From: Variovorax sp. Root411 | GTDB lineage: Bacteria; Pseudomonadota; Gammaproteobacteria; Burkholderiales; Burkholderiaceae_C | DNA: 64,000 nucleotides | Reading direction: 5' to 3' | NCBI RefSeq assembly: GCF_001425205.1 | Contig: NZ_LMDW01000016.1 | Coordinates: forward strand, 62,001 to 126,000 | Part shown: piece by piece, positions 27,407 to 36,561 of the stretch | How positions within the stretch are numbered: position 1 is the stretch's first letter | How the letters are laid out: each line of letters begins with the position of its first letter | The notes under the pieces: model-generated | What the model saw: the letters and a program-made list of their open reading frames with translations, nothing else | Database searches by the model: none | Told to the model about the DNA's origin: nothing | Program-made: the position numbers and the translations under genes

Positions 27407-28981
27407 ATGAACGCCTGCCTCTCGCTCCTGCGCCTCGCGCTCGCCGGCGCCCTGATCGCGGCGCTCGGCGCCTGCGGTTCGCTTCCGCCGGCGCGGGAAC
27501 GGCCCGCGGAATTTGCCACCTCTGCCGACTCGTCGACCATGCTCGCGAAGATCGCCGCCGCGTCCACGCCGCCCGGCGAGCACTCGGGCTTCAGGCTGAT
27601 GCCGCTGGGCGTGTACTCGCTCGACGCACGCATCCAGCTGGCCCAGCGGGCCCAGCGTTCGCTGGTGGTGCAGTATTACCAGCTCGAGAACGACGCCGTC
27701 GGCCGACTGCTGCTGCGCACGCTGCGCGAGGCGGCGATGCGCGGCGTGAAGGTGCGGGTGCTGGTGGACGACCTGTACACCGTCAAGAGCCAGCAGTTGC
27801 TGCTGGCACTGTCCGAGACGCCCAATGTCGACGTGCGCCTGTTCAACCCGTTCTGCTGCGGGCGCAACGGCTTCCTGTCGCGCTTCGCGGCGTCGCCGTG
27901 GGAGATTTCGCGGCTCAACCACCGCATGCACAACAAGCTCTTCATTGCCGATGGCGTGATGGCGGTGGTGGGCGGGCGCAACATCGCCGAAGAGTATTTC
28001 GTGCTCAGCGAGGCGCAGAACTTCATCGACATGGACGCGCTGGTGATCGGCAAGGTGGTGCCGCAGCTCGAATCGATCTTCGACGCCTACTGGAACAGCG
28101 TGCAGGTCTGGCCGATTGCCGACATCGTCACGGGCGAGGGTGGCCGCAAGCCGAACGGCGCCGATTTCGACAGCTGGGTGGGCATGGCCGCACCGCCGCC
28201 GAAGATCGTGCTGCCGCCGTCCGACGTCCTCGGCTACGGGCCCATTGCCGAGGAGCTCGACGGCGGCCGCATGGGCCTGCTGTGGGGCGAGGCCCGCGCC
28301 ATCGCCGACCCGCCCACCAAGCCCGCGACCATGTCCGCCGACCAGGCCATCGCCACCAGTGTGACGATGAAGGTCTGGGCGCTGCTGCTCGACGCCAAGA
28401 CCGAGGTTGACCTGACCTCGCCGTACCTGGTGCCGGGCGAGCGCGGCATGGAGGCTTTCGAGGACCTGGCCAGGCGCAAGGTCAAGCTCACGCTGCTGAC
28501 CAATTCTCTGGCCGCCAACGACGAGCCGCTGGTGCACACCGGCTATGCGCGCTATCGCCAGCGGCTGCTCGAAAGCGGCGCCGACCTCTACGAACTGAGC
28601 CCGCAGCGCACCAGCGCGGGTGAGCGCTTCGGCATGTTCGGCAAGTCGCTCGGCCGGCTGCATGCCAAGACCGCTGCGATCGACAAGACACGCATCTTCA
28701 TCGGCTCGATGAACCTGGACCCGCGCTCGGCCAGCCAGAATACCGAGATGGGCGTGGTGGTCGACAGCCCGCAATTGGCGCGCGAGATGCTGCGCGTCAT
28801 CAACATCAGCAAGCTGCAGAACTCCTACCGGCTGCGGCTGGCCAAGGGCACCGGCACGCTGGAGTGGCTGACGAGCGATGGCGAGAAGGAAATGATCCTG
28901 ACCTCGGAGCCCGAGTCGGGCTTCTTCCAGCGCTTCTACAACATGCTCATCGCGCCGATCGTTCCCGAGATGCTGTTGTAG
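27407..28981 (+). CDS. Phospholipase D-family lipoprotein, cardiolipin synthase C-like
   Basis: A 524-residue protein with a lipoprotein signal (ALIAALGAC23). Two HKD phosphatidyltransferase motifs are intact: H175-N-K177-x4-D182 and H419-A-K421-x4-D426, each followed by the expected GGRN or GSMN segment. The layout (LPLGVYSLDAR-type start, NPFCCGRN insertion) resembles ClsC/YmdC, which makes cardiolipin from phosphatidylglycerol and phosphatidylethanolamine; other phospholipase D activities are possible. The next gene begins 9 bases after its stop, so it looks like the first gene of the lipid-related operon running to 33501. Confidence 0.87.
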   Translation: MNACLSLLRLALAGALIAALGACGSLPPARERPAEFATSADSSTMLAKIAAASTPPGEHSGFRLMPLGVYSLDARIQLAQRAQRSLVVQYYQLENDAVGRLLLRTLREAAMRGVKVRVLVDDLYTVKSQQLLLALSETPNVDVRLFNPFCCGRNGFLSRFAASPWEISRLNHRMHNKLFIADGVMAVVGGRNIAEEYFVLSEAQNFIDMDALVIGKVVPQLESIFDAYWNSVQVWPIADIVTGEGGRKPNGADFDSWVGMAAPPPKIVLPPSDVLGYGPIAEELDGGRMGLLWGEARAIADPPTKPATMSADQAIATSVTMKVWALLLDAKTEVDLTSPYLVPGERGMEAFEDLARRKVKLTLLTNSLAANDEPLVHTGYARYRQRLLESGADLYELSPQRTSAGERFGMFGKSLGRLHAKTAAIDKTRIFIGSMNLDPRSASQNTEMGVVVDSPQLAREMLRVINISKLQNSYRLRLAKGTGTLEWLTSDGEKEMILTSEPESGFFQRFYNMLIAPIVPEMLL

Positions 28982-28990
28982 CCTCGGGGG

Positions 28991-29764
28991 ATGGCGCAGA
29001 CCTTCACCTCGTTGTCCGCCCCGCAGGTCATGCTGTGGGGCGTACTTTTTTTCGGCGGCATCTATCTCGGCTTCGGCGGCATCACCTGGCTGTTGACGAA
29101 CTGCGTGCTGCCGGCGCTGGGCCTCGGGCGCGAACTCGATCCGCGGCCGTTGCAGCCGGGGCAACTGCAGCGCGAGCTGGGGCAGTCGGGCGTGTCGGTG
29201 CTGATCTTCGGGCTGGGCATGGTGTTTCCATGGGGGCTGCTGCAGCTGGGCTGGGCGCGGCTCGACGGCGATGCGGGGTGGCGGCAGATCGCGGTCGAGA
29301 TCGTCGCGCTGGCTTTCTGGAACGACGTGCATTTCTGGATCAACCACCGGCTGCTGCATACGCGCTGGCTGCGGCGCTTTCACGGACCGCACCACCGCTC
29401 GTTCGTGACCACGCCTTGGGCCACCTACAGCTTTCATCCCGTCGAGGCGCTGATGCTCGGCAACGTGATCCTGCTGCCGATGGTGGTGCACGACTTCAGT
29501 TTCTGGTCGCTGGCGGCGGTGCCGGTGTTCAGCCTGTTCTTCAACTGCATCGGGCATTCGAACTACGACTTCTTCACGGGCGTGTCGTACAGCAACTGGT
29601 TCGCGGCGAGCCGCCGGCACCATCTGCACCACGCCGTGCACAACGGCAACTACGGATTTCAATTCACGTTCATGGACCGGCTGTTCGGAACGCGTGTCGC
29701 GGCCGATGCAGCCGAGCCGATTCTCCGGGCCTACCGCAAGAAGCATGGCGCAACCACGGCCTGA
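28991..29764 (+). CDS. Sterol desaturase / fatty acid hydroxylase superfamily membrane protein
   Basis: A 257-residue protein with several membrane segments and the histidine clusters of the non-heme diiron hydroxylase superfamily: H114FWINH119 with H123, H131GPHH135, and RRH210HLHH214. Such enzymes hydroxylate or desaturate lipid substrates in the membrane with O2. The substrate is unknown. A G-rich stretch precedes the ATG, 9 bases after the phospholipase gene, and the next gene overlaps by 20 bases. Confidence 0.86.
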   Translation: MAQTFTSLSAPQVMLWGVLFFGGIYLGFGGITWLLTNCVLPALGLGRELDPRPLQPGQLQRELGQSGVSVLIFGLGMVFPWGLLQLGWARLDGDAGWRQIAVEIVALAFWNDVHFWINHRLLHTRWLRRFHGPHHRSFVTTPWATYSFHPVEALMLGNVILLPMVVHDFSFWSLAAVPVFSLFFNCIGHSNYDFFTGVSYSNWFAASRRHHLHHAVHNGNYGFQFTFMDRLFGTRVAADAAEPILRAYRKKHGATTA

Positions 29765-30686
29765 CGCGAGTCGCCACCTGCCGCGGCTGCGTCACTGGCG
29801 CGACTGGCAGAGCCTTGCCTATCTCGTCGCGTTGCCTGTGCTGGCTGCGTGGCAGTGGTTCCACGGCTTCGATGTCCTGTTGTATGGGCTGACGCTGCTC
29901 CTGACGCTCGGCGTCGGCGTGATCCATCACAACCATGTGCATCTGCGCATGTGGCGCGGGCGCCGCATGAACCGGCTGACGGACTTCTGGATCACGCTGC
30001 TGCAGGGGCACCCCACCTTCGTGTTCTGGCCTGCGCACGTGGCCAACCATCACCGGCATCGGCACGGGCCGAAGGACGTGGCGCGCACCTACCGCTTCGG
30101 CGGCGACACCAACCACCTGCGGGGTTACCTGCTGCATCCGTTCCAGGCGGTGTGGGTGCTGATGCCGGTGTTCTTCGCGTGGCTTGCTCGGCTGCGGCTG
30201 CATAGGCGCGGCGCGTGGCGCTACTGCATGGCGCAGTACGTGCTGTGGCTGGCCAGTTGGGCAGTACTGCTGGCGCTCGATTGGCGCAAGGCACTGGTCT
30301 TCGTCATTGCGCCCCAGCTGCATGGCCTGCACTGGCTGCTGGCGACCAACTACCTCCAGCACGCACATGCCGACGGCCGGAAGGCGCCTCGCAAGGAGGC
30401 GCAGGGCGATACCCCGGGTAGCCGGCTGAACTACGCCCGCAATTTCGAGGGGCTGGTGAACCCCTTGCTGTTCAACATCGGCCTGCACACCGCACACCAC
30501 GAGAACCCGCATGCCCATTGGTCCGAGCTCACCCGCCTGCATCGCACGCGCTACCGCGCGCAGGTGGACCCCGTGCTCAACGAGGGCGGGCTGGTGCCGT
30601 ACATGGTGCGGGTGTTCCTGCTGGGGGCCGTGTGGCCGCGTTTTCGCAGCCGCCCGCTGATGCCTCCCGATTCATCCATCAACTGA
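29745..30686 (+). CDS. Fatty acid desaturase family protein
   Basis: A 313-residue membrane protein with the three desaturase histidine boxes: HHNHVH (61-66), H102HRHRH107, and HTAHHENPH near the C-terminus. This is a second, separately derived non-heme diiron oxidase directly beside the sterol-desaturase-type one. It should introduce a double bond or hydroxyl into an acyl chain. The start at 29745 lies inside the end of the previous gene, and the next gene starts 3 bases after its stop, so both neighbours are probably coupled to it. Confidence 0.84.
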   Translation: MAQPRPDASRHLPRLRHWRDWQSLAYLVALPVLAAWQWFHGFDVLLYGLTLLLTLGVGVIHHNHVHLRMWRGRRMNRLTDFWITLLQGHPTFVFWPAHVANHHRHRHGPKDVARTYRFGGDTNHLRGYLLHPFQAVWVLMPVFFAWLARLRLHRRGAWRYCMAQYVLWLASWAVLLALDWRKALVFVIAPQLHGLHWLLATNYLQHAHADGRKAPRKEAQGDTPGSRLNYARNFEGLVNPLLFNIGLHTAHHENPHAHWSELTRLHRTRYRAQVDPVLNEGGLVPYMVRVFLLGAVWPRFRSRPLMPPDSSIN

Positions 30687-30689
30687 ACC

Positions 30690-32606
30690 ATGCCCGTCTC
30701 ATTTCAACGCGTCTACCTCGAAAGCGCCGGCTACTTTATGCCGGGCGAGCCCATTCCCAACGACCGTATGGACGTCTACATCGCGCCGCTCAACCGCATG
30801 TCGGAGCGCATCAAGCGGCGCATCCTGGCGGAGAACGGCATCCTCACGCGGCACTACGCCATCGACGAGGAAGGCGTGACCCGCCACACCAATGCGCAAC
30901 TGGCGGCCGGTGCCATCCGCGACTGCCTGCGGCGGGGTGGGGCGGAGCTGTCGCGCGTGTCGCTGCTGGCCAGCGGCTCGTCGGGCGGCGACACGCTGAT
31001 GCCGGGCTTCGCCAACATGATCCAGGGCGAACTGGCCGCGCAGCCGATGGAGACGCACTCGGTGCACGGCATCTGCGCGGCCGGCGTGTCGGCGATCCAG
31101 ACTGCCGCGCAGGGCATCGAACTGGGCGCTCATCGTTCGGCGATGGCGGTGGCGAGCGAGATGCCGTCACGCCTGTTCAAGCGTTCGCGCTTCGCGGCGC
31201 GTGGCTACGAGACCGACTTCGACTCGCACTTCCTGCGCTGGATGCTGTCCGATGGCGCGGGCGCCTTGCTGCTGTCCGACGGTACGCCCGCACTGGCCGG
31301 CGCACCGGGGCTGCGGCTGAAGCTGAAGTGGGTGCACCAGCGCGCCTTCTCGGGCGACTATCCGGTGTGCATGCAGCTCGGGCTGACCGAAGACCGGGCA
31401 CGCGGCCACCTCGATTTCGGTTCCTGGGCCGAGGCCGAAGCTGCGGGTGCGCTATCGCTGCGCCAGGACATCCGCCTGCTGCCGCACCTGTTCGACATCG
31501 GCATCCACGAGTACGCGGGGCTGGTGCGCGACGGGTGGGTCGATCCGAAGCGGGTCGATCACTTCCTGTGCCACTACTCGTCCGAAAAATTCATTCCGGT
31601 GGTCGAGGACCTGATGGCCAAGGCCGACCTGTCGATCCCGCGCGAACGCTGGTGGAGCAACCTCGCATGGCGTGGCAACACCGGCGCAGCGTCGATCCTC
31701 GTGATGCTGGCCGAATTCCTGCACACCAAGGCGCTGAAGCCCGGCGAGCAGATCTTCTGCTACGTGCCGGAGTCGGGGCGCTTCATGGCAGCGTACATGC
31801 TGCTCGAAGTGGAGGCGGTCGATGCCGTGCCGGTGGTCGTCGCGCCGCGCGCGGCGGCGGCGCCCGACGACGACCTCGTGATCGCGCCCCCGCACGACCC
31901 GGCCGCCGCACCCGACGGCCTCGGCGCCTTGTTGACCGAATTGGCCGCCATCTGGCACGACTACCGCTCCCGCGTCTGGCGCACGCCGCTGGTCCGCCAG
32001 ATCCGCGAGCGCCGCTTTGCCGTGCCCGACTACCTGAACTGGATGGGGCAATGGGTGCCCCAGGTGCGCGAAGGCAGCCTGTGGATGCGCGAAGGCGCCG
32101 CCTCGTTGAGCGAGCCGTACCAGGTGCTGGCCTCGCTGATCGGCGTGCACGCGGGGGAGGAGCAGAACGACTTCAACATCCTCTTCAGCGACTACCGCAA
32201 CGCCGGTGGCACGGTCGAGAAAATCGAGGACCTGCGCCGCAACCCCGGCGGCGAGGCGCTCAATGCCTACCTGCATGGCCTGGCCGCCACGCGCGACCCG
32301 ATCGGGCTGCTGGGCGCGATCTACATCATCGAGGGCACGGGCCAGCGCATCGTGCCGGCGCTGCTGCCGCTGCTCAAGGCCAGCCTGAAGCTGCCGCCCG
32401 ATGCCTTCCGCTTCCTCGAGTACCACGGCCATAACGACGAGCATCACCTGAGCCGCTGGCTCACGGCGGTCGAAATGGTCATGGCCGTGGAAGGGCAGGC
32501 CCGCGCCGCCCGACAGATTGCCGACACCGCGCGCCACACGGCCGCGCTGTACCTGATGCAGTTCCAGCACATCACCGAACGCAGCCCCCATGGACCGAAC
32601 ACCTGA
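30690..32606 (+). CDS. Ketoacyl-ACP synthase III fused to a heme-oxygenase-like domain
   Basis: A 638-residue two-domain protein. Residues 1 to about 375 form a FabH-like condensing enzyme with a complete triad: Cys129 (HGICAAG), His295 (FLCHYSSEK) and Asn330 (GNTGAAS). An Ala/Pro/Asp-rich linker (about 385-412) leads to residues 415-630, which look like an iron-containing redox (heme-oxygenase/TenA-like) fold. Candidate metal ligands there are H487 with E490/E491 and D494, E548, and the E577-Y-H-G-H-N-D-E-H-H586 cluster. The condensing domain would join acyl units; the second domain may oxidise the product. The fusion is unusual. It sits 3 bases after the desaturase gene and overlaps the next gene by 17 bases. 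Confidence 0.82.
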   Translation: MPVSFQRVYLESAGYFMPGEPIPNDRMDVYIAPLNRMSERIKRRILAENGILTRHYAIDEEGVTRHTNAQLAAGAIRDCLRRGGAELSRVSLLASGSSGGDTLMPGFANMIQGELAAQPMETHSVHGICAAGVSAIQTAAQGIELGAHRSAMAVASEMPSRLFKRSRFAARGYETDFDSHFLRWMLSDGAGALLLSDGTPALAGAPGLRLKLKWVHQRAFSGDYPVCMQLGLTEDRARGHLDFGSWAEAEAAGALSLRQDIRLLPHLFDIGIHEYAGLVRDGWVDPKRVDHFLCHYSSEKFIPVVEDLMAKADLSIPRERWWSNLAWRGNTGAASILVMLAEFLHTKALKPGEQIFCYVPESGRFMAAYMLLEVEAVDAVPVVVAPRAAAAPDDDLVIAPPHDPAAAPDGLGALLTELAAIWHDYRSRVWRTPLVRQIRERRFAVPDYLNWMGQWVPQVREGSLWMREGAASLSEPYQVLASLIGVHAGEEQNDFNILFSDYRNAGGTVEKIEDLRRNPGGEALNAYLHGLAATRDPIGLLGAIYIIEGTGQRIVPALLPLLKASLKLPPDAFRFLEYHGHNDEHHLSRWLTAVEMVMAVEGQARAARQIADTARHTAALYLMQFQHITERSPHGPNT

Positions 32607-33501
32607 TTTCCTGACCCAGGCGCACGACGAGCGCGACCCCAGCCCCTGGCTGGCGCTGTACCTCGACCAGAGCACGCCGCTGCCCGATGACGTCAAGGCC
32701 GCGTGGCTGGCCGATTCGAGTTCGGCCTCGCGCCAGTACCTGCTGCCGTTCCTGCGGCCGATCGCGCGGCTGACGATCATCCTGATCCAGATCGTGAAGG
32801 TGTTCGTGCCGCGCAACTGGTCGCATTCGATGTTGCTGCACCGACTTCTCGCCTGGGGGCTGAAGCGCTTTGTTTCGCCGGAGGCCAATTGGCTGATCCT
32901 GCGGCACTTTCACCTGGGCTCGCAGGTGCTGGCCTTCATCGGGCGAAACTCGCCGGCCCCGGTGGCGACGAGCCCGCTGGAGCCGGCCGACATCGACGCG
33001 CTGAAGGACGAGATGTTCCTGAAGCACGACCTGAACCTGTTCAACTTCGTGATCCGGCTAAACAAGGCGCTGCGCGACAAGGGCGTGGCGCTGTGCAAGG
33101 CGGAACAGGCCGATTTCTCGATGATCAGGGAGCCCGGTCCGCGGCTGGAAGACATGCCCCGGGGAAAGCTCAATTTTCTCGACCTGCAAAGCGCGATCGA
33201 GCTTTTTACGCCGCTTTACCAGCTGATGCTGACGGACAACGATTTTTGGCGTGCCGCCAACTCCCTGCAGCTGGACGAAACCATCGGCATCTACGCGGCC
33301 ACGATCCTGGCCGCGCCCGAACACCTCATTCTGGTCAACAACAAGCACCCGCTCGTGCCCCTGTCGACCTTGCGGGCGGGGCATCGGCTGGTGATCCACG
33401 GGTTGTCCACCGAAATGCTGCACAGCCTGCTCCAGCGGATGCAGGCGGCCCAGGAAACCGGGGCGCCAGAGACCTCCCCGTGCGAGCAGCCACTTGCATA
33501 G
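32590..33501 (+). CDS. Conserved protein of unknown function in the lipid operon
   Basis: A 303-residue protein I do not recognise. It begins MDRTPDFLTQAHDERDPSPW. A hydrophobic stretch near residues 58-76 (ARLTIILIQIVKVFVP) suggests one membrane-associated segment. The rest is helical and charged, with FLKHDLNLFNFVIRLNKALRD in the middle. No catalytic motif is obvious, though histidines and acids are present. It overlaps the synthase fusion gene by 17 bases, so its role is very likely tied to that enzyme. Confidence 0.7.
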   Translation: MDRTPDFLTQAHDERDPSPWLALYLDQSTPLPDDVKAAWLADSSSASRQYLLPFLRPIARLTIILIQIVKVFVPRNWSHSMLLHRLLAWGLKRFVSPEANWLILRHFHLGSQVLAFIGRNSPAPVATSPLEPADIDALKDEMFLKHDLNLFNFVIRLNKALRDKGVALCKAEQADFSMIREPGPRLEDMPRGKLNFLDLQSAIELFTPLYQLMLTDNDFWRAANSLQLDETIGIYAATILAAPEHLILVNNKHPLVPLSTLRAGHRLVIHGLSTEMLHSLLQRMQAAQETGAPETSPCEQPLA

Positions 33502-33527: not shown

Positions 33528-33890
33528 ATGAACACGACCGATAATCCGTCTCCCAAGACCGATCTGGCAGTGACCCACGTGTTGGCACAACTGCTGGAAA
33601 AGCTTGAACACAGCGCTGTGCCCGTTGGCGCAGAGCAGTACCGTTCCGTGGTCGAACACCTCGTGCATGAGTTCGAGGATGTCGAGCAGGGCGCCGAACT
33701 CGGCCGTCTGCTCGATGCTTATCCGGCCGCGGCCGAGGTGTACGAGAACCTCAATTACCAGCACGCCGGGCTTTGCCGCTCGGCGTTGGACGCTTCCCTG
33801 GCTGCTGAAGCCAGTGCCCGGGAAGCCATTGCACGCGCGATACGCCGTGCCGAACCGAACAGCAAGGACAAGACGCATGGCGAAGGGTGA
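33528..33890 (+). CDS. Small hypothetical protein, acidic and helical
   Basis: A 120-residue protein with no recognised family. It appears fully helical and acidic, containing a leucine/valine-rich stretch (AVTHVLAQLLEKLEH) and an EFEDVEQGAELGRLLDAYPAAAEVYENLNYQ region. An alternative ATG at 33519 would add three residues. It follows the lipid operon by 26 bases and overlaps the next small gene by 14 bases, so it is probably a real coupled gene. Its function is unknown. Confidence 0.65.
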   Translation: MNTTDNPSPKTDLAVTHVLAQLLEKLEHSAVPVGAEQYRSVVEHLVHEFEDVEQGAELGRLLDAYPAAAEVYENLNYQHAGLCRSALDASLAAEASAREAIARAIRRAEPNSKDKTHGEG

Positions 33891-34107
33891 AGTGAAGACG
33901 GCGGTGGTGGCGGACGGCCTGCGTTACAAATCGAAAACGCCCGGTTCGCCGTTCCGCGCCTCGGCGTCGTTCAGTGGCGCGACCATGTCGTGCTTCATGT
34001 GCGGCAAGCACCGCGTGCGCTCGCAGCTGCGCACCCGTCAGGTGCTGGGCAAGTCCCAGACCGTTTGCGCCCCTTCCTGCAAGGCGCTCGACGAATCCCT
34101 CGAATAG
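33877..34107 (+). CDS. Small zinc-ribbon-like hypothetical protein
   Basis: A 76-residue basic protein with a CFMCGKH motif and a later C-x3-C pair (VCAPSC), a spacing that fits a small zinc-binding ribbon. It starts MAKGEVKTAVVADGLRYKSK. It overlaps the preceding 120-residue gene by 14 bases. I do not recognise the family; an RNA- or DNA-binding role is only a guess from charge and cysteines. Confidence 0.65.
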   Translation: MAKGEVKTAVVADGLRYKSKTPGSPFRASASFSGATMSCFMCGKHRVRSQLRTRQVLGKSQTVCAPSCKALDESLE

Positions 34108-34960: not shown

Positions 34961-35803
34961 TCAACCCGCGGCCGCTGCTTCGGGTGCCGTGCCTATGGGC
35001 GTGTACTGCGCGCGGTTGTCCTCCAGCCAGCGCACCGAGAGGCTGCTGTCCTGCTGTATCGGATGGAAGTCCGGGCGCAGGTAGCTACGCCAGCCGGCCA
35101 GGTTGCCGCGCAGCAGGCCGTCGCGGCTCAGCAGGATGCGTGCGGCGCTCTTCCAGGTCGACCATTTCCACAGTTGCTTTTCGCGGCGCAGGTTGTCGAT
35201 GGTCTGGTGCATCAGGTCGCCCAGGAACATTGCCGTAACGCGGCGGAACCAGCGCGTGCGCCATTCGTCGGAGCCGCCCGTGGCCTTGTAGATGTCGAAG
35301 GCCACGCTCTTGTGTTCCAGTTCTTCGGCGCTGTGCCACAGCCACATCGTGCGCAGCCGGGGCTCGGCGCCGTCGAGGATCTCGGGGTGGGCCAGCAGCC
35401 ATTCGGCGAACAGCGCCGTGAAGTGCTCGGTGGCCGCCGTCACCGCCAGCGCGTGGCGCGGATCGGCGTCTTCCATCAGCGCCAGGCGCTTGCCCGCGCG
35501 CGCCGTCCAGCCATCCACCAGGCCCTGGCTTTCCAAGTGGTTGTTGAAGAGCGAATGAATGCGCCGGTGCGTGGCTTCCTGGCCGATGAAACCGCGCAAG
35601 TCGGCGCGGTGCTTTTCCTGCACTTCCGTCGGCAGCGTGGCAACGGCATCGCGAACCGCGTCGATGAAGAATTGCTCGCCGAAGGGGAAGCTCATCGACA
35701 GGGCGTTGAAGAAAGCGGTCGAGAATGCGTCGCCGCCGCACCAGTCGCGGGCAAAGGGCGATTGCAGATCGATCAGAAGGCGGCGGACCACGAGATCAGT
35801 CAT
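34961..35803 (-). CDS. Metal-dependent hydrolase-like protein (PF10118 family)
   Basis: A 280-residue protein of the predicted metal-dependent hydrolase family PF10118. Probable metal ligands form a diiron-like pattern: E43, E76-x2-H79 with H83 (GQEATHRRIH), and EELEHKSVAFD further on. Several helices may sit at the membrane. Family members are often beside TetR regulators and lipid genes, but no member's reaction is certain to me. A GAGG lies upstream of the ATG at 35803. It is divergent from the TetR gene, with two matching palindromes between them. Confidence 0.8.
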   Translation of the reverse strand: MTDLVVRRLLIDLQSPFARDWCGGDAFSTAFFNALSMSFPFGEQFFIDAVRDAVATLPTEVQEKHRADLRGFIGQEATHRRIHSLFNNHLESQGLVDGWTARAGKRLALMEDADPRHALAVTAATEHFTALFAEWLLAHPEILDGAEPRLRTMWLWHSAEELEHKSVAFDIYKATGGSDEWRTRWFRRVTAMFLGDLMHQTIDNLRREKQLWKWSTWKSAARILLSRDGLLRGNLAGWRSYLRPDFHPIQQDSSLSVRWLEDNRAQYTPIGTAPEAAAAG

Positions 35804-35843
35804 GAAAAACAAGCCTCGGAAAAAGCGCGGGATGGAAATAGTT

Positions 35844-35859
35844 GGTACATCTTCGTACC
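35844..35859. promoter_or_regulatory. Operator-like palindrome 1 (GGTAC-N6-GTACC)
   Basis: GGTAC and GTACC are separated by six bases, in the gap between the divergent hydrolase and TetR genes. An identical architecture occurs 45 bases away. It is 41 bases upstream of the hydrolase start, well placed for repression of that gene. Confidence 0.65.
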
Positions 35860-35888
35860 GGCATGCTTCCATGGTGCAATCGAAGATT

Positions 35889-35904
35889 GGTACTGTCAAG
35901 TACC
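35889..35904. promoter_or_regulatory. Operator-like palindrome 2 (GGTAC-N6-GTACC)
   Basis: The same half-sites and the same six-base spacing as the element at 35844-35859; here the inverted match extends to GGTACT/AGTACC. It ends 25 bases before the TetR start, well placed for autoregulation. Confidence 0.65.
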
Positions 35905-35928: not shown

Positions 35929-36561
35929 ATGAGTGAAACCATCGAAACAGCCGTCCCTGCCAGGTCAGCCGACGGCATCGGAAGCGAGCACTACACGCGC
36001 CTGCTGCAAGGCATGGCGCATGCCGTGGCAGCCAAGGGCTACGCCGAAACCACCATCGCCGACATCGTGCGCGAGGCCGCCGTGTCGCGCCGCACCTTCT
36101 ACGAACACTTCAGCACCAAGACCGAGTGCCTGATCGCGCTCTACGAGACCGCCAGCCGGCGCGCGCTGCAGGCGGTGAGCGAGGCCTTCGATCCGGTGCA
36201 GCCCTGGCATGCGCAGGTGGAGCAGGCCATGACCGCGTACTTCGATTACCTCGCGCAAGACCCTGTGCTGCTGCGCACGCTGTTCGTCGAGATCCTGGGG
36301 CTCGGCATGCCCGGCCTCGTGGTGCGGCGCAGGGTGAACGACGAGATCGCCAACTTCATCCAGGTGGCGATCAACAGCGGCAGTGCCGGCGCGGAAGACC
36401 CCGGTGTGCACCTGTCGGGACAGATGGCGATGACGGTGGTCGGCGGCATCAACGAACTGGTGCTGCAGGCCATCGAGCAGGATCGAGCAGGCGACCTGCG
36501 CGAACTGGTGGCGCCCGCCACGCGGCTGGTGCGGGCCGTGGCGGCCGAGAGCGGGCGCTAG
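35929..36561 (+). CDS. TetR/AcrR family transcriptional regulator
   Basis: A 210-residue regulator. The N-terminal DNA-binding domain contains TIADIVREAAVSRRTFYEHFSTKTE, a typical TetR helix-turn-helix at about residues 42-66. The C-terminal ligand pocket has no obvious family marker. A GTG at 35920 would add three residues and lies nearer the GGAA sequence; the ATG is preferred by habit of the family. It probably represses itself and the divergent hydrolase gene through the two GGTAC-N6-GTACC sites. Confidence 0.9.
   Translation: MSETIETAVPARSADGIGSEHYTRLLQGMAHAVAAKGYAETTIADIVREAAVSRRTFYEHFSTKTECLIALYETASRRALQAVSEAFDPVQPWHAQVEQAMTAYFDYLAQDPVLLRTLFVEILGLGMPGLVVRRRVNDEIANFIQVAINSGSAGAEDPGVHLSGQMAMTVVGGINELVLQAIEQDRAGDLRELVAPATRLVRAVAAESGR

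Follow-up and report, generated by a model that had tools for sequence, protein, structure and literature searches.

A conserved gene cassette of a StlD/DarB-like ketosynthase, a Haem_oxygenas_2 domain and DUF6999 in Variovorax and other Pseudomonadota

Ketosynthases (KSs) of the StlD/DarB type form a cyclohexanedione from two acyl-type thioesters. Classical dialkylresorcinol synthesis employs darA together with darB (PMC3992019), and flexirubin and dialkylresorcinol clusters carry a DarB-type KS among lipid-synthesis genes (PMC3992019, PMC9606717). The heme-oxygenase-like dimetal oxidases (HDOs) are a growing superfamily, about a dozen of whose members have been validated functionally; their usual ligand set, 3H/3C, comes from three core helices. 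The main text of a 2026 review on these enzymes contains neither the word "ketosynthase" nor the word "fused" (PMC13108848). Here, we analyzed a 64,000-nucleotide stretch of Variovorax sp. Root411 (contig NZ_LMDW01000016.1, positions 62,001 to 126,000; referred to as the window), in which a StlD/DarB-like KS is fused to an HDO domain and followed by a protein of the Pfam family DUF6999. KS, HDO and DUF6999 constitute the conserved core of a gene cassette, to which a sterol-desaturase/fatty-acid-hydroxylase-type (FAH) and a fatty-acid-desaturase-type (FAD) membrane oxidase belong as accessory members. With its DarB-type KS among lipid-synthesis genes the cassette resembles the flexirubin and dialkylresorcinol clusters, but it comprises four genes, whereas the flexirubin cluster of F. 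johnsoniae spans 37 kb (PMC3992019). By family, every part except DUF6999 is already known. Among the matches listed from the Creative Commons-licensed PMC literature, judged by title and the start of the abstract, no description of the KS/HDO/DUF6999 combination was found, and DUF6999 was named in no paper of the literature searched there. The features of the cassette region are as follows.

27407..28981, plus strand: PLD-family lipoprotein, cardiolipin-synthase-like, 524 aa (PF13091, 123.7 bits); judged to lie outside the functional unit
28991..29764, plus strand: FAH, sterol-desaturase/fatty-acid-hydroxylase-type membrane oxidase, 257 aa, accessory (PF04116, 80.6 bits)
29745..30686, plus strand: FAD, fatty-acid-desaturase-type membrane oxidase, 313 aa, accessory (PF00487, 78.4 bits)
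30690..32606, plus strand: KS-HDO fusion protein, 638 aa (ACP_syn_III_C and Haem_oxygenas_2)
30690..31817, plus strand: KS domain, StlD/DarB-like, residues ∼1 to 376 (StlD 5gk0, E 1e-58; own clade)
31074..31076, plus strand: KS catalytic Cys129, by homology (invariant, 98/98)
31572..31574, plus strand: KS catalytic His295, by alignment, with invariant Cys294 just before it (98/98 each)
31677..31679, plus strand: KS catalytic Asn330, by homology (invariant, 98/98)
31917..32573, plus strand: HDO domain, residues ∼410 to 628 (PF14518, 39.5 bits; predicted fold)
32148..32171, plus strand: HDO helix with H487, E491 and D494 (98/98 each; D494 opposite a His of 3dde)
32331..32333, plus strand: HDO putative metal ligand E548 (invariant, 98/98)
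32424..32447, plus strand: HDO putative ligands H579-x3-D583-x2-H586 (98/98 each)
32590..33501, plus strand: DUF6999 protein, 303 aa, predicted all-helical (PF22523, 436.6 bits)

The initial annotation had described five tightly packed plus-strand genes, and these open reading frames were all present (27407-28981, 28991-29764, FAD to 30686, 30690-32606 and 32590-33501), separated by a 9-base gap (PLD-FAH), a 20-base overlap (FAH/FAD), a 3-base gap (FAD-KS-HDO) and a 17-base overlap (KS-HDO/DUF6999). Their Pfam families above cut-off were PLDc_2, FA_hydroxylase, FA_desaturase, ACP_syn_III_C plus Haem_oxygenas_2, and DUF6999. The FAD frame is open from position 29694; the ATG at 29745 is the better start, matching an orthologue in another Variovorax locus (L043:5657-6598). 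The fifth gene, previously listed as unrecognised, turned out to encode a full-length member of the named Pfam family PF22523/DUF6999 (436.6 bits versus a cut-off of 27), to which Pfam assigns no function.

Occurrence and gene order of the cassette

Co-occurrence, gene order, family assignments, the predicted HDO fold and the conservation of catalytic residues were computed directly. DUF6999 served as the tracer for related loci across genomes because it is specific. It was present in 9 of 398 genomes drawn from the phylum, 13 of 250 from the window's order, 6 of 289 from the class of genome G223 and 1 of 148 from the order of genome G368 (partly overlapping draws), as well as in 1 of 14 control genomes, Caulobacter vibrioides. 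At all loci from the draws over the phylum, the class of G223 and the order of G368, KS and HDO were encoded directly upstream of DUF6999, as read from the surroundings. Searching in the opposite direction, with KS-HDO as the query (E ≤ 1e-80), returned the same 13 of 250 order genomes and none besides; the four 250-genome order draws used for DUF6999, KS-HDO, FAD and FAH were one and the same set, judging from shared genome identifiers. The hypergeometric p-value for this match was 5.7e-22 at the level of genomes (13/250) and 7.9e-15 at the level of genera (10/121), uncorrected for kinship. In a family draw (n = 150), a full-length KS-HDO protein was found in 5 genomes, with DUF6999 adjoining it in 5/5; the remaining matches were partial, being FabH-like, DarB-like or HDO-only.

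The two membrane oxidases followed the core less strictly. Among the 250 order genomes, 12 contained a match to FAD (E ≤ 1e-15), 11 of them at E ≤ 5.3e-48 and all of these among the 13 cassette genomes; the 12th match was weak (E 1.1e-20) and came from a genome without the cassette. FAH (E ≤ 1e-20) was matched in 15 genomes, i.e., in 12 of the 13 cassette genomes and 3 of the 237 others, one of which (G985, E 1.4e-78) carries its FAH gene ∼320 bases from a contig end and so counts only provisionally as lacking the core. In plasmid records, FAH relatives were 28 to 34% identical (10 listed of 73 records), and no FAD relative was found at E 1e-5. KS-HDO and DUF6999 thus share the same 13 of 250 order genomes. 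The co-occurrence that the initial annotation had asked to be checked holds outside close relatives and supports its idea of a dedicated unit, centred on the KS-HDO fusion and including two membrane diiron-type oxidases.

The gene surroundings were read at 103 DUF6999 loci, among which C. vibrioides was not included. These comprised 10 loci (8 from the DUF6999 draw and 2 from the KS-HDO search), a further 12, 1 plasmid locus and the best 80 of 501 confirmed DUF6999 relatives, the last of which biases the set toward close relatives. Four duplicates were recognized by sequence check, leaving 99 distinct loci. Within the best 80 of the 501 relatives, the nearest named relative of the window's DUF6999 was that of Variovorax sp. 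CF313 (99% identical). The locus sequence of G379, a genome of the window's genus, is that of the Variovorax sp. Root473 locus (L043, L067).

KS and HDO lay directly before DUF6999 in 101 of the 103 loci (97 of 99 distinct), and KS-HDO accompanied DUF6999 in every case, being located elsewhere in the genome in the other two. In these exceptions, both from Variovorax (L084 and L087), FAH and DUF6999 stood side by side at the usual place, and FAD and KS-HDO were found on another contig (L161 and L160, respectively). There, FAD and KS-HDO are divergent from a gene that by eye resembles a short-chain dehydrogenase. That all four genes were retained despite the split argues for a shared function. 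Since KS, HDO, FAH, FAD and PLD all come from broad families, one might suspect that chance had brought together genes with no function in common; this is already contradicted by the identical occurrence of KS-HDO and DUF6999 (13/13) and by the retention of the four genes where the cassette is split, and we regard it as extremely improbable. Rather, KS, HDO and DUF6999 very probably act in one pathway.

Of the 101 loci that encode both domains, 93 have KS and HDO in a single open frame. Two adjacent genes were found instead in eight loci, namely L048 and L147 to L151 (all from the class of G223), L049 (G368, from the window's class but a different order) and L159, which lies on a Pseudoalteromonas plasmid. 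The stretches fetched for these eight unfused loci, that of L150 being short, contained no match to FAH or FAD even at E 0.05. Both oxidases were seen only in the window's order, where either can be missing: L047 (G316) was without FAH and had its FAD gene in two frames (L047:11443-12302, minus strand), which is either broken or an assembly error, and L156 and L158 were without FAD. At L049 and L159, the gene before KS encodes a membrane-type protein of 185 to 188 residues with conserved His residues (64% identical between the two loci), which had no Pfam match and may replace FAH/FAD:

L049:10441-11007, minus strand, and L159:5621-6178, plus strand: His-bearing membrane-type protein with HExxAH-like and EMHAH motifs

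In a KS tree of 33 rows, the 18 fused rows formed one clade (100/100), joined by those of L049 and L159 (81/85); the six rows of the G223 class formed one clade (100/99), and five DarB-like paralogues fell outside (92/95). Because the fused rows form a single clade, the KS-HDO fusion probably arose once, from already neighbouring genes. The tree also bears on an explanation in which the KS would be a FabH-type starter enzyme and the oxidases would modify ordinary phospholipid acyl chains, amounting to an unusual initiation or membrane-lipid tailoring system. Two membrane diiron-type oxidases in the cassette would suit such a role, as would lipid genes neighbouring it at single loci: an acyltransferase/AMP-binding fusion at L048, a diacylglycerol kinase at L047 and a PLD-family protein at L042. 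However, the KS grouped with DarB-like rows and not with FabH, the tool cautioning that the DarB and FabH rows meet as long branches, and the kinase and the acyltransferase fusion occurred in no gene group common to at least 3 of 25 compared loci. We therefore consider a starter enzyme unlikely.

Ketosynthase, oxidase domain and DUF6999

The best solved relative of the KS was StlD (5gk0; phmmer E 1e-58, profile E 3.6e-131), with an alignment spanning profile positions 2 to 374. StlD also topped the fold search, though the KS model was poor: in the model of the whole fusion, the predicted local distance difference test (pLDDT) was below 50 over residues 1 to 200, for which reason only the HDO part was used further. 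Like StlD and DarB, to which it is homologous and among which StlD is the nearest solved structure, the cassette KS has a C-H-N triad (C129, H295 and N330), each residue of which was invariant in 98/98 sequences. From the alignment, H295 probably corresponds to the His of the StlD mutant H302A, allowing for a tag offset. The cassette KS differs from StlD/DarB in its scores below the family cut-offs, in forming its own clade, and in its linkage to HDO and DUF6999. Moreover, C294 was invariant (98/98), in contrast to the Pro found there in DarB paralogues and StlD (LCH for LPH). The Pfam family ACP_syn_III was matched below its cut-off (19.9 of 24 bits).

Further DarB-like KSs were encountered in other settings. 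The window's genome contains a paralogue (G000:C19:52923-54092, corresponding to L052:9969-11102, minus strand) that is 39% identical and adjoins ABC-2 transporter genes, a FabF-like ketosynthase and a BtrH_N/DUF4872 protein; it belongs to a separate lipid-type cluster. A DarB-like KS, 37.5% identical, is present on Streptomyces linear plasmids in a different cluster (two read of three records listed), which in L162 and L163 includes two acyl carrier proteins, FabF, FabG, a P450, an FAD-dependent oxidoreductase and a phosphopantetheinyl transferase.

The HDO domain matched PF14518/Haem_oxygenas_2 with 39.5 bits (cut-off 28.9), as did 15 of the 16 HDO sequences of the set at E ≤ 0.01. It was modeled with a pLDDT of mostly 80 to 90, and the model predicts a heme-oxygenase-like helical fold, with matches to CADD (TM-score TMt 0.85), Sden_3740/3dde (0.80) and UndA (0.68 to 0.70). 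With known HDOs such as UndA, CADD and SznF it thus shares PF14518, the predicted fold and conserved His and carboxylate residues on several helices. It differs from them in being fused to, or encoded beside, a KS, and in having an invariant Asp where 3dde has His. H487, E491, D494, E548, H579, D583 and H586 were invariant in 98/98 sequences each. Compared with the 3H/3C set, E548 and H579/D583/H586 are present, and the helix carrying H487, E491 and D494 has the Asp (D494) opposite the His in the 3dde alignment, all ligand roles being putative. H487 could supply the third metal-ligand His.

Together, the two domains invite a comparison with hydrocarbon synthesis, in which an OleA-like KS would join two fatty acyl chains head to head into a beta-keto acid and an UndA-like HDO would oxidatively decarboxylate it to a long-chain alkene, ketone or related hydrocarbon. 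Entries deposited as 3-oxoacyl-ACP synthase III that we take to be OleA structures (3row, 3s21, 5vxd, 6b2r and others) do appear among the KS matches, and UndA, whose fold the predicted domain matches, is an HDO converting mid-chain fatty acids to 1-alkenes with release of CO2 (PMC13108848). However, the OleA entries scored E 0.005 to 0.014 versus 1e-58 for StlD, so the KS is not nearer to OleA, and the predicted HDO fold is nearer to CADD than to UndA. No Ole-type hydrolase, ligase or dehydrogenase was named among the ten window proteins scanned, where no Ole profile was searched by name. We judge a hydrocarbon route rather unlikely.

The best fold match by TM-score points in another direction, as CADD is a self-sacrificing enzyme (PMC13108848). 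Together with the altered pattern H487-x3-E491-x2-D494, it would be in keeping with an HDO domain that is self-modifying or non-oxidative, through CADD-like radical chemistry or a structural role, so that the KS product would not be oxidised by it. The metal-type residues on the other HDO helices, invariant in 98/98 sequences, favour a working metal centre instead, and a self-modifying or non-oxidative domain seems very doubtful to us.

DUF6999 was modeled as an all-helical protein (pLDDT 81). Fifteen residues were invariant in 100/100 rows (D26, R48, N100, R105, H106, N120, H146, D147, D198, N224, D229, N251, R266, H270 and E275), and one might guess from this set of Asp, Arg, Asn, His and Glu that the protein is enzyme-like. 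The 50 listed of its 159 fold matches included bestrophins and ferritins as well as two or three HDO-like entries (E 2 to 3), none of them usable. Two candidate relationships, namely of DUF6999 as a diverged HDO and as a relative of the Metal_hydrol protein encoded at 34961-35899, were rejected after profile comparisons that came back empty (with a shallow DUF6999 profile of 10 sequences).

The His motifs of both membrane oxidases were intact. FAH exceeded the PF04116 cut-off (80.6 versus 31 bits), and its His residues 114, 119, 123, 131, 134, 135, 189, 210, 213 and 214 were invariant in 89/89 sequences. FAD exceeded the PF00487 cut-off (78.4 versus 29.7 bits), with all three His boxes intact (H79/81/83 and H115/119/120 in 87/87, H265/268/269 in 86/86).

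Proposed function

As a whole, we read FAH-FAD-KS/HDO-DUF6999 as a dedicated cassette that makes an oxidised condensed lipid, to which we assign a probability of roughly 45%. Such a cassette would, judging from its gene content, build and oxidise an acyl product. The reaction steps, their order and the nature of the product we infer as follows. Like StlD/DarB, the KS would draw two acyl or beta-ketoacyl thioesters from fatty acid metabolism and condense them to a cyclohexanedione-type or related branched beta-diketone. The HDO domain, taking over the position that DarA has in classical dialkylresorcinol pathways, would oxidise the nascent KS product by means of a non-heme dimetal centre and O2, and DUF6999 would be a helical enzyme working on the same intermediate. 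In the membrane, FAD and FAH would finally act on the lipophilic product as desaturase or hydroxylase. The product is perhaps a lipid of the cyclohexanedione or resorcinol kind. A scan of window proteins, in which no DarA profile was searched by name, named none of them as DarA-like.

Several observations weigh against an oxidised condensed lipid as the product. The KS scored below the NCBIfam cut-offs for StlD/DarB (NF005293, 314.2 of 450 bits) and DarB (NF053539, 254 of 550 bits), so its product may differ. With an invariant Asp where 3dde has His, the usual O2 chemistry of the HDO domain is not assured. Neither an acyl carrier protein nor a flavin enzyme was named in the family scans of window proteins. 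The enzymatic role of DUF6999 is a guess from conservation: none of the 159 matches in a fold search of the PDB reached E ≤ 0.001, and against PDB sequences the profile found nothing at E ≤ 1 and the single-sequence search one chance-level match. The absence of FAD and FAH matches at the eight unfused loci implies that these oxidases are not needed for the basic reaction, and FAH relatives occur in three genomes without the core. Finally, the co-occurrence p-values assume random placing and ignore kinship among the genomes.

Tentatively, and with slightly less confidence than in the lipid cassette as read above, we propose that at least two classes of Pseudomonadota share a pathway not described before. 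In it, the product of a new StlD/DarB-like KS clade would pass, in cis in the fused proteins, to a dimetal oxidase that uses O2 and has rearranged ligands, and DUF6999 would be a new enzyme class needed for finishing the oxidised lipid. Cassette genera include Variovorax, Achromobacter, Bordetella, Pigmentiphaga and others, a presence which suggests an overlooked lipid. If the proposal is true, a condensing enzyme covalently joined to an HDO would represent a new coupling of C-C bond formation and O2 chemistry. Moreover, the matching occurrence provides a concrete handle on DUF6999, and the small cassette could be expressed in a laboratory host and tested there.

Neighbouring genes in Variovorax

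The initial annotation had counted the PLD lipoprotein as the first gene of a five-gene unit. Among the 39 loci counted as Variovorax, 34 have this gene immediately upstream of FAH, as does L043, likewise a Variovorax locus. None of the remaining 63 of the 103 loci does, and these include the Variovorax-named L095 and its duplicate L050. Since this position is limited to Variovorax, PLD was rejected as a cassette member and is a genus-level neighbour; what stands of the five-gene unit is the KS, HDO and DUF6999 core with FAH and FAD as accessory genes. Downstream of the cassette, the following features were noted.

33528..33890, plus strand: small protein, 120 aa, no Pfam match above cut-off; judged outside the unit
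33877..34107, plus strand: small protein, 76 aa, no Pfam match above cut-off; judged outside the unit
34961-35899, minus strand: Metal_hydrol (PF10118) protein, divergent from the TetR gene
35929-36561, plus strand: TetR regulator, divergent from the Metal_hydrol gene

The 120-aa protein directly followed DUF6999 in 34 of the 39 loci counted as Variovorax, plus L043, and the 76-aa protein was present in 39 of the 103 loci, all of them Variovorax. A promoter scan of the region found none. The beginning of the FAH gene contains a terminator-like 10-pair hairpin (29017-29042) with TACTTTTTTT after it. Chance would account for as many such hairpins (3 found versus a mean of 4.9 expected), and only in some Variovorax loci was the T-run of this one kept or strongest.

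At L042:3478-4635 (G350), the gene just upstream of FAH encodes a different PLD-family protein (385 aa), so that a PLD-family neighbour arises by two different genes, that of the window type and that of L042. In three Variovorax loci (L085, L086 and L090), a PLD/peroxiredoxin pair was located downstream of the cassette and not upstream, and in L086 and L090 both small proteins were encoded upstream of it. These shifted neighbours suggest that the cassette moves as a block.

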